From Fibrobacteria bacterium (GTDB lineage: Bacteria > Fibrobacterota > Fibrobacteria > UBA11236 > JADFYW01), in NCBI GenBank assembly GCA_015232855.1, contig JADFYW010000001.1, positions 120,830 to 184,829 of the forward strand: a stretch of DNA of 64,000 nt, read 5' to 3'. The position numbers were made by a program, and so were the translations under genes. The notes under the pieces were generated by a model. It did not search any database and was not told the DNA's origin. It saw only the letters and a list, made by a program, of their open reading frames with translations. Shown here one piece after another: positions 42,749 through 52,803 of the stretch. Positions within the stretch are counted from its first letter, which is position 1. Each line of letters begins with the position of its first letter.

Positions 42749-45277
42749 TTAATCGGCCCCTAACATCAGACCTTCAAGCGATAACGCCCAGATGTTTGTG
42801 GTGGATAACTGAGAAACCGCCTTTGAAATATCTTTAGTCATTTCCCTTACAGGCGACGTTTGCATACGTGCAAAATATTTACCAAACAATACATCTCGTG
42901 GTTCAAGCCGGACAACCCGAATTTCCTCCCCCCGCCCTACTTTCATTTTTTGTTTGGCAAGAGTAATGGCCATTTCCAGATTACCTATTTTGTCTACCAG
43001 ACCATTCTGTACAGCCTGTTCGCCGGTAAAAACCCGACCCTGAGACACCCTTTCGGTACTGTCCTGGCTCAATTTTCTACTCCGACTTACAATATTCGTA
43101 AAACGGCTATAGAAGGCATGTAAGTGCCCTTGTATGGCCTTCGCTTCTTTTTCAGTCCAATGCCGGTAATCAGAAACAGCATCAGCATGGGGCTCAGTAA
43201 CCACCACTGCTTTTTTTAAACCCAGTTTTTCATATAAGCCCTTCACCACAAATTTTCCACCGAATACACCAATAGATCCTAGTATGGTATTTTTCTGTGC
43301 AATTAATACATCACCACCACAAGCGATATAATAGCCACCAGAGGCGCAGACATTCCCCATCGATACAATAACCGGTTTACCTTCTTTGCGAACCAATTCT
43401 ATTTCTCTCAATATAATATCAGACGCTACAGCCGAGCCACCTGGAGAATTAATACGTAACACCACCGCACCAATATTATCATCCAGGCGTGCCTTCTGCA
43501 AAAGAGCAACCAAAGTCTCGCTACCCGTTGCGCGCATACTAAACAAGCCACCACGGTTACTGGATCCTTGCATTAAAGAGCCCTCTATCAGTATTAAGGC
43601 AACAGACCGGCCCTCATACCATCGACTATCAAGAAGTTCCTGGTATTGGGGATGTGTGGCCCTGGCATCTTTCCAGCCAGCATATTCCATAAGTTGGTCT
43701 TCAAATAAGGCGGTATCGATGAGTCCGCTGGTACGCGCATGACTGAGAGAAAGATCAGCGGTTGTAATAGAATTGGCAAGGGAATCAACGGCAATATTCC
43801 TTGATGCGGCAACATCATTTAAAAAGCGACTCCAGAGATTGCCCATTATACTACGCATATTATCTTTCCACTCAACGGATACTGAGTCACGGGTAAACAT
43901 TTCGGGGAATGATTTGTATTTTCCTTCTTTGAGAAACTGCGCTTCTACACCAATTTTATCAAGCAACCCCTTAGTGAGCAGAGTCTCTGTTGAAAACCCT
44001 CTTAGATTAAAGGCACAGGAGGGCTGCACAACAACCCTATTTGCAACGGAAGCGATATAATAATCTAAACGGGAAACTGACTCCATATAGGAAATAATGG
44101 TGATTCCTTTTTTCTGCAAGGCTAATAAACCATTACGTAAATCCTCAGCAATTGCCCATCCACAACGGAGGTGTCCTGTTTTTAAGATTAATATTTCTAT
44201 ACCCGACATTTGATTAATACTTTTTAAGAGAGCCATTATATTCTGATGCCCGGTCCTGTCTGAACGTTCAAACCAACCTGGTTCTTTATATCCCTCAATA
44301 ATGAATGTATTCAAATCAAGTAAAACCACACGCCCCGGCGTAACCGTTTTATTTGATTTGACTTTTTGATGGGACTGAAGAATAAATTCATCATTTTCTC
44401 GTCCGTCTCTCGTTTGCATCCGGTTATAAGCAATAAGACTATTGGGAGAAAGCTGAGTAAAAAGACCAAGAGAGAAATCACTTCCATCAGCGGGGTTAAT
44501 CCGCCCTTGTAAATGGATCCAGTTAAACAGGTGCAAATCAGAAGCAAGGTATTGTTCTACGTTATCAAAGGATTTGAAGTCTGGCTTTGAATACACTGCT
44601 TCATAGGCAACAGTCCATATATCACTATGTTCCAGAAACAACCCCAGTGGCCTCAGGCCCACACCCATTATATGAGTTTCATCGAGAACATACTTACTGT
44701 GCAACATCTCCTTTGTATAATAACCCAATTGCACAAAAGGCAGAGGTGAGTACTGCATGCCAAAATCCAGTGACCAACTAACATCACTGTTAAAATACTG
44801 ATATTTTACCAGAGCCCCCCCATGGAAATTTTTCGTATTGATGATAGGAAGATGGAGCGCATATTCATGATGGTCTGTGCCACTGGTATATCGATAACCA
44901 AGCCCAAAGTATGTCCAACTGTTGCTGATAAGAACGCTATTAAAATCAGCATTTTCTTTAAGGGATAGCCCAAGAGTACCAAATTGTCCCAAATCAGGAT
45001 AACTGCCACCGGGATTACCAAATACACCGGCACTTCGGGAAAGAGGAGAGGCAAAAGGCATGAGAAAGGGATTATCTAATGAAAACGAAAGTGTTGCCAG
45101 GCCGGTCCCTGCTATAAGCAGGATGACAGCAAAAAGGCCGGTATTTTTCTGATACCGCAAGGGCATAAGTTTCATTGAAGCGGATGCTGATGCACCGCTT
45201 AATTCAGCTTTATACCGCAAGGGCATAAGTTTCATTGAAGCGGATGCTGATGCACCGCTTAATTCAGCTTTAGGCAT
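42749..45277 (-). CDS. SppA-type signal peptide peptidase fused to a barrel-like domain
   Basis: An 842-residue protein. After a signal/anchor segment at about residues 47-65, residues 70-290 look like beta strands of an outer-membrane or periplasmic barrel (FGTLGLSLKENADFN, YFGLGYRYTSG). The C-terminal 540 residues contain two S49 domains: the catalytic Lys in KEGKYKSFPEMF (near residue 457) and the catalytic Ser in NVCASGGYY (near residue 642), as in E. coli SppA (67-kDa type). The first 40 residues contain two copies of the 20-residue unit KAELSGASASASMKLMPLRY, due to the 60-bp tandem duplication. The start overlaps the YeeZ-like stop by eight bases. The peptidase should degrade cleaved signal peptides; the role of the barrel part is unknown. 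Confidence 0.82.
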   Translation of the reverse strand: MPKAELSGASASASMKLMPLRYKAELSGASASASMKLMPLRYQKNTGLFAVILLIAGTGLATLSFSLDNPFLMPFASPLSRSAGVFGNPGGSYPDLGQFGTLGLSLKENADFNSVLISNSWTYFGLGYRYTSGTDHHEYALHLPIINTKNFHGGALVKYQYFNSDVSWSLDFGMQYSPLPFVQLGYYTKEMLHSKYVLDETHIMGVGLRPLGLFLEHSDIWTVAYEAVYSKPDFKSFDNVEQYLASDLHLFNWIHLQGRINPADGSDFSLGLFTQLSPNSLIAYNRMQTRDGRENDEFILQSHQKVKSNKTVTPGRVVLLDLNTFIIEGYKEPGWFERSDRTGHQNIMALLKSINQMSGIEILILKTGHLRCGWAIAEDLRNGLLALQKKGITIISYMESVSRLDYYIASVANRVVVQPSCAFNLRGFSTETLLTKGLLDKIGVEAQFLKEGKYKSFPEMFTRDSVSVEWKDNMRSIMGNLWSRFLNDVAASRNIAVDSLANSITTADLSLSHARTSGLIDTALFEDQLMEYAGWKDARATHPQYQELLDSRWYEGRSVALILIEGSLMQGSSNRGGLFSMRATGSETLVALLQKARLDDNIGAVVLRINSPGGSAVASDIILREIELVRKEGKPVIVSMGNVCASGGYYIACGGDVLIAQKNTILGSIGVFGGKFVVKGLYEKLGLKKAVVVTEPHADAVSDYRHWTEKEAKAIQGHLHAFYSRFTNIVSRSRKLSQDSTERVSQGRVFTGEQAVQNGLVDKIGNLEMAITLAKQKMKVGRGEEIRVVRLEPRDVLFGKYFARMQTSPVREMTKDISKAVSQLSTTNIWALSLEGLMLGAD
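45152..45271. repeat. Perfect 60-bp tandem duplication at the 5' end of the SppA-type gene
   Basis: Positions 45152-45211 and 45212-45271 are identical; the match runs one base further. The unit is in frame (20 codons). Each copy contains the hairpin arms AAGCGG and CCGCTT with an inner TGC/GCA pair (45178-45200 and 45238-45260). The exact identity points to a very recent event or to an assembly artefact. Confidence 0.95.
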
Positions 45278-46174: not shown

Positions 46175-46540
46175 TCATGACCCGTAGTATATGCAGCTGG
46201 TCGTACAGGTCTCAGACAGTGTTACTGAAATAAGCAAAGGTAAATCCGGTTTTAATCTATCCCACACCCATCTACAAATATTTTCTGAAGTTGGATTTTC
46301 AAGGCCAGGAACATCTTTATTTAAAAACCGGTGATCCAGAGTTTCTTTTACAGGAATTATCAGTTTTTTAATCTCACCAAAATCCAAAACCCAGCCATAT
46401 TCTGCGTTTACTTCACCAGAAATCTCAAGTGTGCAACGAAAAGTATGACCATGAATCCTGCCACATTTATGGTTTTTGATCACATTTGGTAAAAAATGTG
46501 CAGAATCAAACGTAAAACTCTTGGTAATATTGGCTTTCAT
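46175..46540 (-). CDS. queD: 6-carboxy-tetrahydropterin synthase QueD
   Basis: QueD converts dihydroneopterin triphosphate to 6-carboxytetrahydropterin in the 7-deazaguanine (queuosine) pathway. In 121 residues the motifs are FDSAHFLP and CGRIHGHTF (zinc-binding His residues plus catalytic Cys), LDHRFLN and PTSENICRWVW, all typical of QueD. The homologous PTPS-III enzyme would differ in the Cys motif. It heads a short minus-strand series queD, YeeZ-like, SppA-like. queF, another pathway gene, is at 14365-14781. Confidence 0.94.
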   Translation of the reverse strand: MKANITKSFTFDSAHFLPNVIKNHKCGRIHGHTFRCTLEISGEVNAEYGWVLDFGEIKKLIIPVKETLDHRFLNKDVPGLENPTSENICRWVWDRLKPDLPLLISVTLSETCTTSCIYYGS

Positions 46541-46614: not shown

Positions 46615-46713
46615 CCTAAAATCAAAGATAAGTTCAGAATTTTTGGGTGGTTTATCTGATGACACTATAAACTTATTTACTAATATATATGGAAATTATT
46701 AACACAGGTGTAT

Positions 46714-47874
46714 ATGCAGAAACCAATAGACATAAATAAAGAATGGCAAGAAAAAATAACCTCTCTACGGGATATGGTACTAGGGAACCTGGTTATGGTT
46801 TCTCAAATTACGGCCAGTACCTTTAAAGAGAGAAACCGCTCTGAGTTTGTACTTCAGCGATTTAAAGAAGTTGGCCTTTCAAAGGCTTATATTGATGAAT
46901 CTGACAATGTCATTGGAGTCCTCAAAGGTCGAAATTCTTCAAGACGAGTTGTATTATCCGCAAATCTGGATACCCGATTTGAGGATGATGTAGATCATAA
47001 TGTGACAATGGATTTTAACCAGGCAAAGGGAGCAGGTATTGCCAATAACTCACTGGGGGTAGCAGCACTTATTTCTCTACCTGATATCATAAAACGTCTG
47101 GATATTCAGTTTGATATGGACATTGTCTTTGCTGCAACTACCAGAGCACATGGCCGTGGTGATCTGGACGGCATGCGGCATTTTATTAATACCTATCCAT
47201 TTAAAATCGATTTTGTTTTAAACATTATGGCTACCAATATTGGAAGAGTTGATCATTTTTGCCAGAGTGCCGTAAGAGGGGATGTAACTTGTGTGGTGGA
47301 GGCTCCTGAAGAATTCACCTCAACGGGGTTTGAACAAAATAATGCAATTATCGTTTTAAATGAACTCATAAACAGCCTGCTCTGTATCCCCATGTCAAAC
47401 CGTCCCAAGATAAGCCTGAATATCGGAAAGACCAGGGGTGGCGAGTCCTATTCCACGCCATGTCCAGAAGCCACTTTAAATCTGTATGTACGAAGTGAAG
47501 ATGACAATATGACTGAGAAGGTCATTGAATCAATCAAAGACTGCTGCATTGATATCGGCAGCAAAAACGGCGTTCGGCTAGATGTTTCATTTTTCGGAAG
47601 ATACCGGGCAGCGGGTCTTCGATTTAGCCATCCCTTAGTAAAAACCGCAATTAAAATAGTACGAACCCTGGGATTCCGTCCCATGGTAGCTCCATCCAAT
47701 ACACAAATTGCAATTCCTTTAAGTAAAGAAATTCCCTCAATAACCATGGGTGTTACCACCGGGAAGCAGAGTTCCCTACCAAACGACTATGTTTTACTAG
47801 AAGATATTCCGGATGGCATCCTCCAATTAATTACCCTCATAAACGAAATAGATAAAGGACACTGTGATGAATAA
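46714..47874 (+). CDS. M20-peptidase-like protein with lost metal ligands (pseudoenzyme)
   Basis: About 386 residues with the M20 peptidase order of segments. All usual metal-ligand motifs are changed: the HxDT motif reads NLDT, the bridging Asp motif reads GAGIANNSLG, the EE catalytic motif is replaced by TTRAHGRGD, and the C-terminal His region reads SSLPNDYV. The fold looks intact and the frame is open, so it is probably a protein with a new role rather than a decayed gene. The ATG at 46714 follows AGG; a GTG two codons upstream (46708) is possible. It overlaps the gpgS gene by eight bases, so a part in the same pathway is inferred. Confidence 0.72.
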   Translation: MQKPIDINKEWQEKITSLRDMVLGNLVMVSQITASTFKERNRSEFVLQRFKEVGLSKAYIDESDNVIGVLKGRNSSRRVVLSANLDTRFEDDVDHNVTMDFNQAKGAGIANNSLGVAALISLPDIIKRLDIQFDMDIVFAATTRAHGRGDLDGMRHFINTYPFKIDFVLNIMATNIGRVDHFCQSAVRGDVTCVVEAPEEFTSTGFEQNNAIIVLNELINSLLCIPMSNRPKISLNIGKTRGGESYSTPCPEATLNLYVRSEDDNMTEKVIESIKDCCIDIGSKNGVRLDVSFFGRYRAAGLRFSHPLVKTAIKIVRTLGFRPMVAPSNTQIAIPLSKEIPSITMGVTTGKQSSLPNDYVLLEDIPDGILQLITLINEIDKGHCDE

Positions 47875-48850
47875 CCTAAACAAATGGTTAAATAAACGGA
47901 CTTTTCATCATGCTCAGTTCAATGATATGAACGGCTTGTTGGTCCAGAAACAGGGTCTTGGCTTAAAAATCAGCCTCTGTCTTCCCACCCTCAATGAAGC
48001 GGGCACCATCGGAAAAGAAATTATTCTCTTAAAATCCGAGCTCATGGAACGCTACCCTATTCTGGATGAAATTGCAGTGATAGATTCTGGTTCCACAGAC
48101 AACACGGTTGAAATTGCCAAAAAATTTGGTGCTAAAGTTTTTCTTGCTTCAGAACACTTAAAAGAAGAAGGCGAAAAACGGGGTAAAGGCGAAAACCTGT
48201 GGAAGGCACTCTATCTTTTAGAAGGTGATATCATTGTATACATTGATGCTGATATTGCAAATATCCACCCAAAATTTGTATGTGGCCTCATTGGTCCTAT
48301 GTTATACAATCCCCATATCAAGTTTGTAAAGGGCTTTTATGACAGACCTTTGACTCTTTCTCAGGGAGTGAGAACCTCCGGTGGCGGACGGGTCACCGAA
48401 ATTTTGATTCGGCCTTTGTTCTCACAGTTTTTCCCGGAATTAACAGGGATTATTCAACCACTTTCCGGAGAATATGCAGGATACCGTTCCATACTCGAGA
48501 AGCTCCATTTTCCTGTAGGTTATGGAGTAGAAACAGGGATGCTCATTGATATTTTCCAAAAATGGGGTCTTGATGTTATTGCCCAGACAGACCTGGATTC
48601 CCGCGTACATAGTAATAAACAAACCCGGGAGCTTGGGAAGATGTCTTTTGGCATATTGCAGACATTCTGGAATCGACTGGCCAGATATAAAAATCTTGAT
48701 TCCATCGAAATAGAAAACTACCGGATGATGCAGGTAGGTATGAAAAACGATACTCCTTTTGTAGAAGATACAGAAATTAAGGAAAAGGAGAGACGGCCCA
48801 TGATAGAAGTTCCAGCCTATTTGGAGAAGTTTCCTCCTCAACCGGAATGA
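47867..48850 (+). CDS. gpgS: Glucosyl-3-phosphoglycerate synthase (GT81, GpgS-like)
   Basis: GpgS transfers glucose from a nucleotide sugar to 3-phosphoglycerate, the first step of glucosylglycerate synthesis. The 327-residue protein shows GT-A features: LCLPTLNEAGTIGKEI, then AVIDSGSTDNT, the DxD metal motif in VYIDADIAN (near residue 126), PLSGEYAGYRS, and GYGVETGMLID, which match GpgS. AAAGGA lies seven bases before the chosen ATG at 47867 (a GTG at 47864 is possible). It overlaps the M20-like gene and the next glycosyltransferase, so the cluster is tightly coupled. The related mannosyl enzyme MpgS (GT55) is less like it. Confidence 0.85.
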   Translation: MNNLNKWLNKRTFHHAQFNDMNGLLVQKQGLGLKISLCLPTLNEAGTIGKEIILLKSELMERYPILDEIAVIDSGSTDNTVEIAKKFGAKVFLASEHLKEEGEKRGKGENLWKALYLLEGDIIVYIDADIANIHPKFVCGLIGPMLYNPHIKFVKGFYDRPLTLSQGVRTSGGGRVTEILIRPLFSQFFPELTGIIQPLSGEYAGYRSILEKLHFPVGYGVETGMLIDIFQKWGLDVIAQTDLDSRVHSNKQTRELGKMSFGILQTFWNRLARYKNLDSIEIENYRMMQVGMKNDTPFVEDTEIKEKERRPMIEVPAYLEKFPPQPE

Positions 48851-50358
48851 AAGTCTTCATTGTTCACAGCCATTTGCAAACCGGGGGTGTGACTCGTGTA
48901 ATACAGTCACAAATACAAGCTCTTTCCCGGTATTTTCCCGCATATCAACCCCATCTCCTTGTTGGTGCTAAACCCAATATTTTTCCCGATGGTATTGAAA
49001 CAAAAAACATCACCATCTACCCGGACCTCAATTACCTGGCGCCGGACCTAACACCATCTAACCTCAAACAGATAAAAGAGAAGCTGTACCGTTTTTTGCA
49101 CAAAAAAATATCTCTTCAGGATATTATTCATGTTCACAACATCAATCTCGGAAAAAATCCGATAGCCGCCCTGGCGGTGTATGAAATGGCCTTGGAAGGC
49201 TATCAGATTATTAACCATTGTCATGATTTTGCAGAAGACGGACGTTATGTAAGTTATAAATTCCTAAAACACATTATTGAGGAGGTCTTTCGGCGTCCAC
49301 TTCCTGAAGTACTGTATCCCTCTCTTCCAAAGTATTTTTATGCCGTTCTCAATTCTCGTGATTATGGCATACTAAAATTCTCAGGCATCCCTGTCTCAAA
49401 TATCAAATTATTATTTAACCCTGTCGTACCTGGGAATAACACAAAGCATCAACCTTATATTGAGAATGAAATTAAAGTAAACCTGGGGATTACCAACAGC
49501 CTTCCTTTATTTGTGTATCCAGTAAGAGGCATCAGGCGGAAAAATATTGGTGAGTTCCTGTTACTCGCCGCCTTATTCCAGGATTCAGCCAACTGGTTGT
49601 TGACACAACCCCCCCAAAACCCTTCTGAATTACAAAATTACCGATTTTGGGAAAAGATTACTCGTCTGTATTCACTTCCGGTAATAATGGCTGCCGGACA
49701 AAAAGTTGAGTACGTCAAACTTGTACAAGGCGCTCAGAAGCTGATTACGACCAGTATTATTGAGGGCTTTGGAATGAGTTTTTTAGAGCCTTGGCTGTAT
49801 AACAAAGAAGTAGCAGGAAGAGACATACCCGAAATCACATCTGATTTTAAAGCCATGGGCATAAGGTATAATCGATTATACAACAGCATACGAATACCTG
49901 TTCGATGGGTCCCCGAATACCAGTCTTTACCGCTAGAATATCTGGAATATATCCAATCCGCTTATAAGCCATTGGGAATCAAAATACCAGACGACAGTAA
50001 ATCAAAAATTAAAAAAAGATTATTCCAGTCCGGAACTATTGATTTCGCTGTACTTGACAATAAAAGACAGGCGCATATCATAAAAAAAGTCACAACCAGT
50101 CACAAAAATAGACAGAGCCTCATCAAAAGCAATAATCTACAGAATTTTGCATGCCTGGAAGCATCAAACTTTATTAAAACAAACAAACGCCTGGTTCAAA
50201 AAAAACTTCACCTCCGCCAATACGGGGCCAAATTAAACGGACTCTATAGGCAACTCAAAAAGGATATAAATCATAGTACCATTATACCCTTAAAAACTCG
50301 TAACCGGGTGGCATCATCATTTTTGGGTATAGATAACTTTTTTTTATTACGAAAATAA
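48847..50358 (+). CDS. GT4-like glycosyltransferase in the gpgS cluster
   Basis: A 503-residue GT-B enzyme. It opens MKVFIVHSHLQTGGVTRVI, a GT4-type start, with IIHVHNINLGKN and NHCHDFAEDGRY in the N-terminal domain. The C-terminal nucleotide-sugar site is TSIIEGFGMSFLEPW, with the EX7E spacing intact. A basic extension of about 110 residues with many Lys and Gln follows. The ATG overlaps the gpgS stop by four bases. In the known Petrotoga route a GT4-type enzyme (MggA) adds mannose to glucosyl-3-phosphoglycerate; this is a candidate for a similar step, but the sugar donor is not determinable. Confidence 0.78.
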   Translation: MKVFIVHSHLQTGGVTRVIQSQIQALSRYFPAYQPHLLVGAKPNIFPDGIETKNITIYPDLNYLAPDLTPSNLKQIKEKLYRFLHKKISLQDIIHVHNINLGKNPIAALAVYEMALEGYQIINHCHDFAEDGRYVSYKFLKHIIEEVFRRPLPEVLYPSLPKYFYAVLNSRDYGILKFSGIPVSNIKLLFNPVVPGNNTKHQPYIENEIKVNLGITNSLPLFVYPVRGIRRKNIGEFLLLAALFQDSANWLLTQPPQNPSELQNYRFWEKITRLYSLPVIMAAGQKVEYVKLVQGAQKLITTSIIEGFGMSFLEPWLYNKEVAGRDIPEITSDFKAMGIRYNRLYNSIRIPVRWVPEYQSLPLEYLEYIQSAYKPLGIKIPDDSKSKIKKRLFQSGTIDFAVLDNKRQAHIIKKVTTSHKNRQSLIKSNNLQNFACLEASNFIKTNKRLVQKKLHLRQYGAKLNGLYRQLKKDINHSTIIPLKTRNRVASSFLGIDNFFLLRK

Positions 50359-50403
50359 ACTGTTTTATGTTTATTATAACTGATACTCTATTTTAGAACA
50401 AAG

Positions 50404-51327
50404 ATGAACGAAATAATCATGGAAAAATATTTTAACCAACTACTCCCTTTAAAACCCATTCCTACTGACGAGAAATGTATTTGCCGGCTGGATAATGGAG
50501 AGCTTACTAAGCTTAAGGCGATTCTCTTTGATGTCTACGGGACAATTCTTATTTCAAGCTCCGGTGATGTGGGAGGATTGCACAATGTAGAGGACAATAT
50601 TATCAAAGCCCTTCTTGAGGCAGGTATCCATTTCAAGAGTAAAGAACCGAATACTGGCCTGGGAAAAGAAATCTTCGAAGCGTATTGTAATATTATTGCA
50701 CAAATGCATCAGGAGGCCAAAGAAAATAATGTTCTTTGCCCAGAAGTGGTAATTGAAGAAGTGTGGACTACTTTACTCCAGCTATTACAGCAAAACAACA
50801 CAATATCTTCTGCTAGTGATATAAACATAAAAGAGCTTGCTGTTATTTTTGAATTTTTATGTAATCCGACATTTCCCATGCCAGGCTTTAAAGATACGTT
50901 AAACAAACTTACCACCCATAAATTTACCCTGGGTATTATTTCAAATGCGCAATTTTTCACTCCTATGCTTCTCCACTTCTTTCTGGGAAGCCGTCCTTTT
51001 TTGCAGGAAGAAAACCTGCCGTTTTTTGACAACCGTTTGCTAAAATATAGTTACCTGGAACGCAAGGCCAAACCAGACATAGGGATTTTCGCTGAGGTGC
51101 GGGACAGCCTGTCTAACTATCATATTCTTCCCGAAGAAGTACTCTTCGTTGGTAATGATATGCTAAAAGACATTTATCCTGCACATCAAGTAAATTTTAA
51201 GACAGCTCTATTTGCCGGAGACAAGCGCTCTTTGCGCCTTAGAAGAAGCGAACCACGGGTGATGGGACTCACCCCAGACATCACCATCACTAGTTTATCT
51301 CAAATCACCGATATCCTTAAAATTTAA
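50404..51327 (+). CDS. HAD-family hydrolase, candidate sugar-phosphoglycerate phosphatase
   Basis: The 307-residue protein has all four HAD motifs: LFDVYGTIL (nucleophile Asp near residue 43), IISNA, the Lys in RKAKPD, and the acidic GNDMLKD. A helical cap of about 110 residues lies between motifs I and II. Placed between two glycosyltransferases and after gpgS, it may remove the phosphate of glucosyl- or mannosylglucosyl-3-phosphoglycerate, as HAD-type GpgP and MggB do elsewhere; this is inferred from context. An ATG five codons in is an alternative start. The gap to the upstream gene is 45 bases. Confidence 0.75.
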   Translation: MNEIIMEKYFNQLLPLKPIPTDEKCICRLDNGELTKLKAILFDVYGTILISSSGDVGGLHNVEDNIIKALLEAGIHFKSKEPNTGLGKEIFEAYCNIIAQMHQEAKENNVLCPEVVIEEVWTTLLQLLQQNNTISSASDINIKELAVIFEFLCNPTFPMPGFKDTLNKLTTHKFTLGIISNAQFFTPMLLHFFLGSRPFLQEENLPFFDNRLLKYSYLERKAKPDIGIFAEVRDSLSNYHILPEEVLFVGNDMLKDIYPAHQVNFKTALFAGDKRSLRLRRSEPRVMGLTPDITITSLSQITDILKI

Positions 51328-51348
51328 TTCTTCCGGAGTAAACAGCAT

Positions 51349-52803
51349 ATGGATATATCCAGGTTAAGCATAGGTATTTTACATTCACTGATTGGCAAAA
51401 ATGACGGTGTATCAATCGTTATTGATCAAACAATCGAAGCCATGATACATATTATGAATATTCCTCTTGGCAATATTCATTTACTCGCAGCCCATTGCCC
51501 CCCTCGGTTTAATACCACAACCGATGAAATTTTTTGGCATAAAAGTGACCAGAACAAATATATCCTTGAAAACTACTCAGATGAGGCTCCGCTTGATCTG
51601 GATTCATTCATACTTGAAGAGGCAAAAAAAGCAAAAAAACTGATGTCAAATTTTGTAGAAAATAATGACCTTGATTTATTTATCATCCACAATTCATGCC
51701 ACCCTTCAAACTTTGTGTATGCTGTAGCTGCCGGCATGTACTTTGAAGAATTACAAAAAGAAGGGCGCGCCACACCTAAATATCTTTTGTGGTGGCACGA
51801 TTCCCATTTTGAACGTGAACGTTTTATGCGCCCTAATGCGGTCATTAAAAAATACCTGCAATATGTACCAGGCCGCCATGTAAATGGAGTAGTCTTTATT
51901 AATACCGAACAGGAAAAACTCGCACAACGGCGCTATTTCACAGAAGTGGGAATGAAAAATCCAGAACTTTTTTTTGAAAGAAAAACAAAAGTAATCCCCA
52001 ATACCTGTGATATTCCCTGGGAATGGAAAGAGCTTAAGACCGATATTCTCAGGCCCATTGCCCCAAAAGAAGATCAGTACAATAAAACGTTTTTCCGTGA
52101 CATCGGTCTGGAACATCTCCTCGAACAAAAGGGCCGCCGTTTTGAAGACACCATAATACTTTTGCAGCATACCCGTATCGTACAACGTAAACGCATTGAT
52201 CATTCAATTGATTTTGCTATAAAAATGGAAAAAAAGTTCAGGGCTGAGGGGCACAAAAAGTTTTTTGTAATACTCGTATCAGGCCATTCCGGAGACGAAC
52301 ATGATGCCCACCGTATGTTCCTCCAGCAATATTTTAATGATATGATGAAGTCTAATCGTCGATCAAAAGAAAATATTGCCCTTATTTTTGCAGAAGAAAA
52401 AATTCTCCCCGAAAAAGAAGTTATTGTTGAGAAAAAATTCTATAAATTTGCAGATATCCCCGGAATTATCGCCCGCTCCGGGGGGATGGGTACCTATTTC
52501 AGTGAGGTTGAAGGTTTTGGCAATAACCTATTGGAGATGATAAGCCTTGGCCTCCCGGCAGTGATAAACAAGTACCCTATATATAAAAGTGATATCGAGC
52601 CCCTTGGGTTTAAATTGCCTGCGACAGAAGGCGGAGCTTTACCAGATGAACTTATTCAGGAATGCTATGAGTTGTTAGTAGATATGCCTAAACGCAATGC
52701 GCTTGTTAAACATAACCTGAAGGTACTTCACAAAAACCTGCATCATGGTATCATAGCCGACAGACTATCAGTCCTTATCCAGAATATGTTTAAATATACT
52801 TAA
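51349..52803 (+). CDS. Second GT4-like glycosyltransferase of the gpgS cluster
   Basis: A 484-residue GT-B-type enzyme. Its N-terminal half opens with SIGILHSLIGKNDGVSIVID and has LFIIHNSCHPSNFVYA and WWHDSHFERERFM; the C-terminal half has ILLQHTRIVQRKRIDHSI and YFSEVEGFGNNLLEMISLGLP, which carries the EX7E nucleotide-sugar site. It is little like the other glycosyltransferase in the cluster, so they probably catalyse different steps. Together with gpgS and the HAD gene it suggests a two- or three-sugar glycerate solute. A GGAG lies about 10 bases before the ATG. The gene converges with the M16 peptidase gene. Confidence 0.76.
   Translation: MDISRLSIGILHSLIGKNDGVSIVIDQTIEAMIHIMNIPLGNIHLLAAHCPPRFNTTTDEIFWHKSDQNKYILENYSDEAPLDLDSFILEEAKKAKKLMSNFVENNDLDLFIIHNSCHPSNFVYAVAAGMYFEELQKEGRATPKYLLWWHDSHFERERFMRPNAVIKKYLQYVPGRHVNGVVFINTEQEKLAQRRYFTEVGMKNPELFFERKTKVIPNTCDIPWEWKELKTDILRPIAPKEDQYNKTFFRDIGLEHLLEQKGRRFEDTIILLQHTRIVQRKRIDHSIDFAIKMEKKFRAEGHKKFFVILVSGHSGDEHDAHRMFLQQYFNDMMKSNRRSKENIALIFAEEKILPEKEVIVEKKFYKFADIPGIIARSGGMGTYFSEVEGFGNNLLEMISLGLPAVINKYPIYKSDIEPLGFKLPATEGGALPDELIQECYELLVDMPKRNALVKHNLKVLHKNLHHGIIADRLSVLIQNMFKYT

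Follow-up and report, generated by a model that had tools for sequence, protein, structure and literature searches.

Organization of a gpgS operon in a Fibrobacteria genome

We examined a 64,000-nucleotide stretch of contig JADFYW010000001.1 from a Fibrobacteria bacterium (positions 120,830 to 184,829; hereafter the window, numbered from its first base). Five neighboring genes on its plus strand encode an M20-fold pseudopeptidase that is putatively a noncatalytic partner of GpgS (gene 1, 46708..47874, 388 amino acids); a protein assigned to GpgS, the glucosyl-3-phosphoglycerate synthase of family GT81 (gene 2, 47864..48850, 328 amino acids); a retaining glycosyltransferase of GT-B/GT4 type (gene 3, 48847..50358, 503 amino acids); a HAD type IA protein that is a candidate phosphatase (gene 4, 50404..51327, 307 amino acids); and a divergent glycosyltransferase of the MggA/MggS family in GT4 (gene 5, 51349..52803, 484 amino acids). 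Genes 1 and 2 overlap by 11 bases and genes 2 and 3 by 4, and gaps of 45 and 21 bases separate genes 3 and 4 and genes 4 and 5, respectively. A previous reading of this DNA without database searches (the sequence-only reading) had described five genes on one strand with these overlaps and gaps, and the layout holds at the exact coordinates; its labels for the genes (M20-like, GpgS of GT81, GT4, HAD, and GT4) were upheld by family searches and predicted folds. With moderate confidence, we read the cluster as a conserved operon for a glucosylglycerate-based compatible solute, the product being mannosylglucosylglycerate or a close variant.

Assignment of gene 2 to GpgS

Gene 2 is the firmest assignment of the five and is solidly predicted to be GpgS. 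It scores 373.5 bits on the curated equivalog NF010496, whose cut-off is 262, and matches GpgS and MpgS structures in the PDB at about 1e-60, with the top score (217 bits) belonging to MpgS of Rubrobacter xylanophilus (3f1y). The catalytic Lys, DxD, Arg, Glu, and His are all retained; the Arg that follows the His is a Ser in the window. At positions where Rubrobacter MpgS differs, gene 2 has the His and Glu of mycobacterial GpgS. The pathway proposed in the sequence-only reading depended on the GT81 protein not grouping with other transferases, and both the curated equivalog and these two residues place it with GpgS. We infer activity with nucleoside diphosphate glucose (NDP-glucose) and 3-phosphoglycerate.

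Recurrence of the operon in distant phyla

A comparison of the window's genome with 100 class-level relatives (101 genomes in all) found GpgS above the cut-off in the window's genome only. When GpgS was used to search named genome contigs, 12 homologs were obtained from Planctomycetota, Lentisphaerota, and Spirochaetota (55 to 65% identity; two are cut by contig ends). The intact order pseudo-M20, GpgS, GT4-like, HAD, GT4-like is present on six contigs of Planctomycetota and Lentisphaerota (L040 and L042 to L046). Partial copies of the five-gene cluster, as far as contig ends allow, lie on two more (L050 and L051), and two contigs of Spirochaetales (L041 and L047) retain genes 1 to 4. Conservation beside gpgS, on which the sequence-only reading also relied, extends to all four companion genes in Planctomycetota and Lentisphaerota and to three in Spirochaetales. 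Since gene order is kept across phyla, a chance arrangement of the five genes is ruled out. Start and stop codons mostly overlap in the relatives' clusters and do so partly in the window.

In a wider survey, approximately 390 genomes from each of three phyla were searched and about 100 GpgS neighborhoods were read; genes close to contig ends are undercounted in its totals. A module recurs in the three phyla, consisting of pseudo-M20, GpgS, gene 3, HAD, an MggA/MggS-family gene, and a phosphorylase gene, either in a single run or with the last two divergent. The full module, with both the MggA/MggS-family and the phosphorylase genes, was found in Verrucomicrobiota-type, Planctomycetota, and Spirochaetota genomes, and one contig (L194) carries all six genes in one contiguous run. 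This recurrence rules out the cluster as a private oddity of the window's genome. The survey also contains a second, more distant group of Verrucomicrobiota-type GpgS loci (L205 to L217); pseudo-M20 is absent from these loci, which often include gene 3 together with a shorter form of the HAD gene.

In the GpgS tree, the window's sequence falls inside a clade of 14 sequences from Planctomycetota, Lentisphaerota, and Spirochaetota, with support of 100/99. Such a cross-phylum clade fits gene transfer, and the operon has probably spread between phyla. The GC content of the cluster (0.38 to 0.41) matches that of its surroundings, so that a foreign base composition is rejected and GC gives no sign of a recent arrival. 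The window's genome is a draft (79.7% complete, 350 contigs), and misbinning of the contig is possible.

Phosphorylase genes associated with the module

On five contigs, a GH13_18 gene lies directly 3' of the cluster. The eight phosphorylase genes that were compared are 40 to 47% identical, over nearly their full length, to Escherichia coli YcjM, which is annotated as a glucosylglycerate phosphorylase. Glucosylglycerate is the sole substrate of strict phosphorylases of this kind (PMC11009771). The presence of phosphorylase genes in the same module provides independent support for a glucosylglycerate product. The window's genome also encodes a full-length GH13_18 homolog (G000:C285:26398-28080), 40% identical to YcjM. 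Overall, a glucosylglycerate pathway appears well supported.

Features of genes 5, 4, and 3

By its sequence, gene 5 is an MggA/MggS-like member of the GT4 superfamily that lies outside the curated MggS equivalog (NF041101). Its orthologs are 46 to 59% identical. Aligned with the MggA/MggS-type genes of the relatives' modules, which score 222 to 254 bits over the full length of this profile (those scanned), gene 5 shares 37 invariant columns and the same position in the module, and it is the sole full-length gene of the family in the window's genome. Given this alignment, the module position, and no other full-length gene in the genome, we take gene 5 to perform the MggA/MggS-like step. Elsewhere in the phylum, 3 of 167 other genomes have matches, all distant, and matches on Vibrio plasmids are 26% identical and without annotation.

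Gene 4 belongs to HAD type IA according to Pfam (PF00702); matches to TIGR02253 and TIGR02252 are below cut-off, and a profile search against solved structures gave weak HAD matches. Motif I, DVYGT in the window, is DIYGT or DVYGT in all 11 orthologs (alignment A4), where the D-x-Y-G-T, S, K, and GND...D motifs are invariant. In the wider survey, 50 of 52 motif matches read D-x-[YF]-G-T (49 with Tyr and 1 with Phe), and the remaining two look spurious. Gene context makes a phosphatase plausible; this is the weakest enzymatic step of the pathway, and we assume it.

Family searches with gene 3 gave weak sequence matches (26 bits on NF041101), and a profile search against solved structures gave no match. 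The predicted structure is that of a retaining GT4 enzyme with a GT-B fold (mean predicted local distance difference test [pLDDT] score, 94.5), and its top matches include sucrose-phosphate synthase, GlgM, MshA, and BshA. Genes 3 and 5 both retain the GT4 EX7E motif and share only remote similarity. Across 52 gene 3 homologs, the RKN and EGFG residues are invariant and the last Glu of EX7E is nearly so. The gene is kept beside GpgS in three phyla, and it accompanies the HAD gene both in the full module and in Verrucomicrobiota-type GpgS loci without pseudo-M20.

A pseudopeptidase linked to GpgS

The most interesting finding is a conserved dead peptidase tied to GpgS. Gene 1 matches PDB entry 7ljh at 2.5e-21 in a sequence search, and structure prediction yields the whole M20 fold (pLDDT, 93), again with this entry as best PDB match (template modeling [TM] score, 0.81). 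The protein has the M20 fold, yet it lacks the catalytic Glu and di-metal ligands of an active M20 peptidase. The window copy has Asn in place of both His1 and the bridging Asp, and its fourth metal ligand is also lost. None of 85 GpgS-linked pseudo-M20 copies has the catalytic Glu-Glu pair, and all six residues checked are retained in 21 of 21 unlinked, more distant relatives. The sequence-only reading had called this protein dead, which the missing catalytic residues bear out.

Orthologs of gene 1 adjoin GpgS in Planctomycetota, Lentisphaerota, and Spirochaetota. In a survey of 388 genomes, pseudo-M20 copies scoring above 230 bits occur in 55, and in every one of these 55 GpgS is adjacent on the same contig (hypergeometric p of 4.5e-54, ignoring the relatedness of the genomes). 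In 9 of 10 close pairs, the ratio of nonsynonymous to synonymous substitution rates (dN/dS) is 0.00 to 0.31, dS being saturated in the tenth; by this measure, the gene evolves under purifying selection. Such selection on close homologs and the confident predicted fold rule out a decaying pseudogene. In many spirochaete genomes, the locus consists of the pseudo-M20/GpgS pair only. Eight other GpgS proteins from Spirochaetota (L185 to L192) are extended at the C terminus by about 180 residues, a region that matches PTS_EIIA_2 in both of the two that were scanned, and the pseudo-M20 gene was undetected in all 8 genomes with an extended GpgS. The linkage, the catalytic loss, and an EIIA-type fusion where pseudo-M20 is missing suggest that the protein serves GpgS directly, as a so far unrecognized noncatalytic structural or regulatory partner.

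Gene 1 could instead be an enzyme with altered chemistry rather than a partner, and one-metal binding is conceivable. Many linked homologs hold the residues of one metal site (of the 85, 54 have His1, 81 have an acidic residue, Asp or Glu, at the bridging position, and 54 have Glu as fourth ligand), and an RGD/RGN motif is conserved beside the former active site. Against this stand the loss of the Glu-Glu pair throughout the linked copies and the state of the window copy, where that site is itself dismantled, and we consider an altered enzyme unlikely.

Two further observations concern the pseudo-M20 gene in spirochaetes. On a Treponema contig (L048, 3001-5195), a very divergent copy (19% identity) lies directly upstream of GpgS, and the other module genes are absent there. 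Three spirochaete genomes (G833, with loci L183/L176; G625, L184/L181; and G883, L182/L174) have two GpgS genes each, one in a full module and one with pseudo-M20 alone.

Proposed pathway and alternative products

In the proposed pathway, GpgS would join NDP-glucose to 3-phosphoglycerate, with gene 1 as its partner. Gene 5 would add a second hexose, most likely mannose, and gene 4 would most likely remove the phosphate. Gene 3 may act at a further step, either adding another sugar or making an alternative diglycosyl glycerate, and the product could be recycled by glucosylglycerate phosphorylase, the gene for which lies on a separate contig in the window's genome and, in relatives, within the module itself. 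Since gene 5 stands where most full-module relatives have their MggA/MggS-family gene, mannosylglucosylglycerate is the simplest expectation. The planctomycete Rhodopirellula baltica accumulates this solute, and does so much more strongly when nitrogen is limiting (PMC3694870). The sequence-only reading had proposed a glycosylglycerate operon that did not fit the known route. Its glucosylglycerate pathway stands, through GpgS, synteny, and the phosphorylase; the notion of an oddity off that route lacks support in that form, as the module is widespread and gene 5 occupies the MggA/MggS position.

Several points weigh against this interpretation. The score of gene 5 on NF041101 is 64 bits, far from the cut-off of 640 for the MggS equivalog. 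The gene 4 family departs from the canonical HAD phosphatase motif DxDx[TV], in which the second Asp is the general acid: a Tyr replaces this residue, as is typical of 2-haloacid dehalogenases. Some Verrucomicrobiota-type GpgS loci have genes 3 and 4 without a nearby MggA/MggS gene, and the phosphorylase gene of the window's genome is unlinked to the operon. The parallel with R. baltica is one of accumulated solute. Lastly, the mannosylglucosylglycerate route as published does not, to our knowledge, include a step for gene 3.

The product may also be new. Genes 5 and 3 could act successively on glucosyl-3-phosphoglycerate, with gene 4 dephosphorylating last, to give a triglycosyl or otherwise extended glycerate; across three phyla the full module retains both gene 3 and gene 5 (or an MggA/MggS-type gene in its place), and the two carry GT4 catalytic motifs while resembling each other only remotely. 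However, co-conservation is no proof of one shared product, the module phosphorylase acts on unextended glucosylglycerate, and no longer form has been reported from the planctomycete that contains mannosylglucosylglycerate (PMC3694870); we regard an extended product as rather doubtful. Two further transferases, with GlgM among the nearest folds of gene 3, would also suit a short intracellular oligosaccharide or primer built from glucosylglycerate instead of an osmolyte. Mycobacteria offer a precedent, as GpgS starts their methylglucose lipopolysaccharide pathway (PMC2581804 and PMC2674218). Yet no obvious recurring genes for branching, methylation, or acylation are present in the module, whose flanking genes are partly annotated, and the phosphorylase genes point to a small glycoside with turnover, so that this outcome seems very improbable.

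We favor an operon for a glucosylglycerate-based solute, common to distant phyla: Planctomycetota, Lentisphaerota and other Verrucomicrobiota-type genomes, Spirochaetota, and the window's lineage. In most of these phyla, compatible-solute chemistry is little studied, and two conserved genes (genes 1 and 3) are unexplained by the published pathway. With a pseudopeptidase linked to GpgS and an EIIA fusion apparently taking its place, control of the pathway's first step can be tested directly. More speculatively, and with considerable doubt, one GpgS lineage may depend on pseudo-M20 as an obligate subunit or sensor, a role that a fused phosphotransferase system (PTS) EIIA domain would fill in some spirochaetes; production of a nitrogen-free solute would thereby follow the nitrogen or sugar status of the cell, and gene 3 would lead to an undescribed glycosylglycerate structure.

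Sequences flanking the operon

A 6-pyruvoyl-tetrahydropterin synthase/QueD-like gene (46175-46540, minus strand) is the divergent neighbor of the operon and has no apparent link to the pathway. Further upstream, positions 45152-45272 hold an exact 60-bp tandem duplication in the first codons of a minus-strand SppA-like open reading frame (42749-45277), which encodes KAELSGASASASMKLMPLRY twice. Neither the rest of the window nor the other loci compared contain a further copy of the 60-bp unit, except for one in L001, which overlaps the same stretch. A scan for promoters and terminators gave counts close to those of shuffled sequence and was uninformative.

Comparison with known systems

Gene 1 shares its fold over the full length with peptidase family M20, represented by the poly(aspartic acid) hydrolase PahZ2 (PDB 7ljh), and differs from it in having lost the catalytic and most metal-binding residues. 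The E. coli phosphorylase YcjM (GH13_18) has homologs both in the relatives' modules and in the window's genome, which differ in position: that of the window's genome lies outside the operon. Among GT81 enzymes, MpgS of R. xylanophilus (PDB 3f1y) belongs to the same family as gene 2 but has Asn and Val where gene 2 keeps the GpgS-type His and Glu. Actinobacterial GpgS, such as that of Mycobacterium tuberculosis (PDB 4y6n), shares both the family and the catalytic residues, and actinobacterial homologs are 38 to 42% identical to gene 2; in contrast, the sole annotated actinobacterial locus seen (Tsukamurella) has gpgS next to folP and lacks M20-like and GT4 neighbors.

Another close parallel is the mannosylglucosylglycerate pathway of Petrotoga mobilis and R. 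baltica, whose enzymes (GpgS, MggA, and MggB, with MggS in Petrotoga) were reportedly described in work by Fernandes from 2010 and by Cunha from 2013; our likening to MggA and MggB is one of pathway role. The window's operon departs from that pathway in having gene 3, a second and remotely similar GT4 enzyme, and the pseudo-M20 protein, as well as in the distance of gene 5 from the MggS equivalog. What the two have in common is a pathway that begins with GpgS and includes a glycosyltransferase of the MggA/MggS family and a candidate phosphatase.

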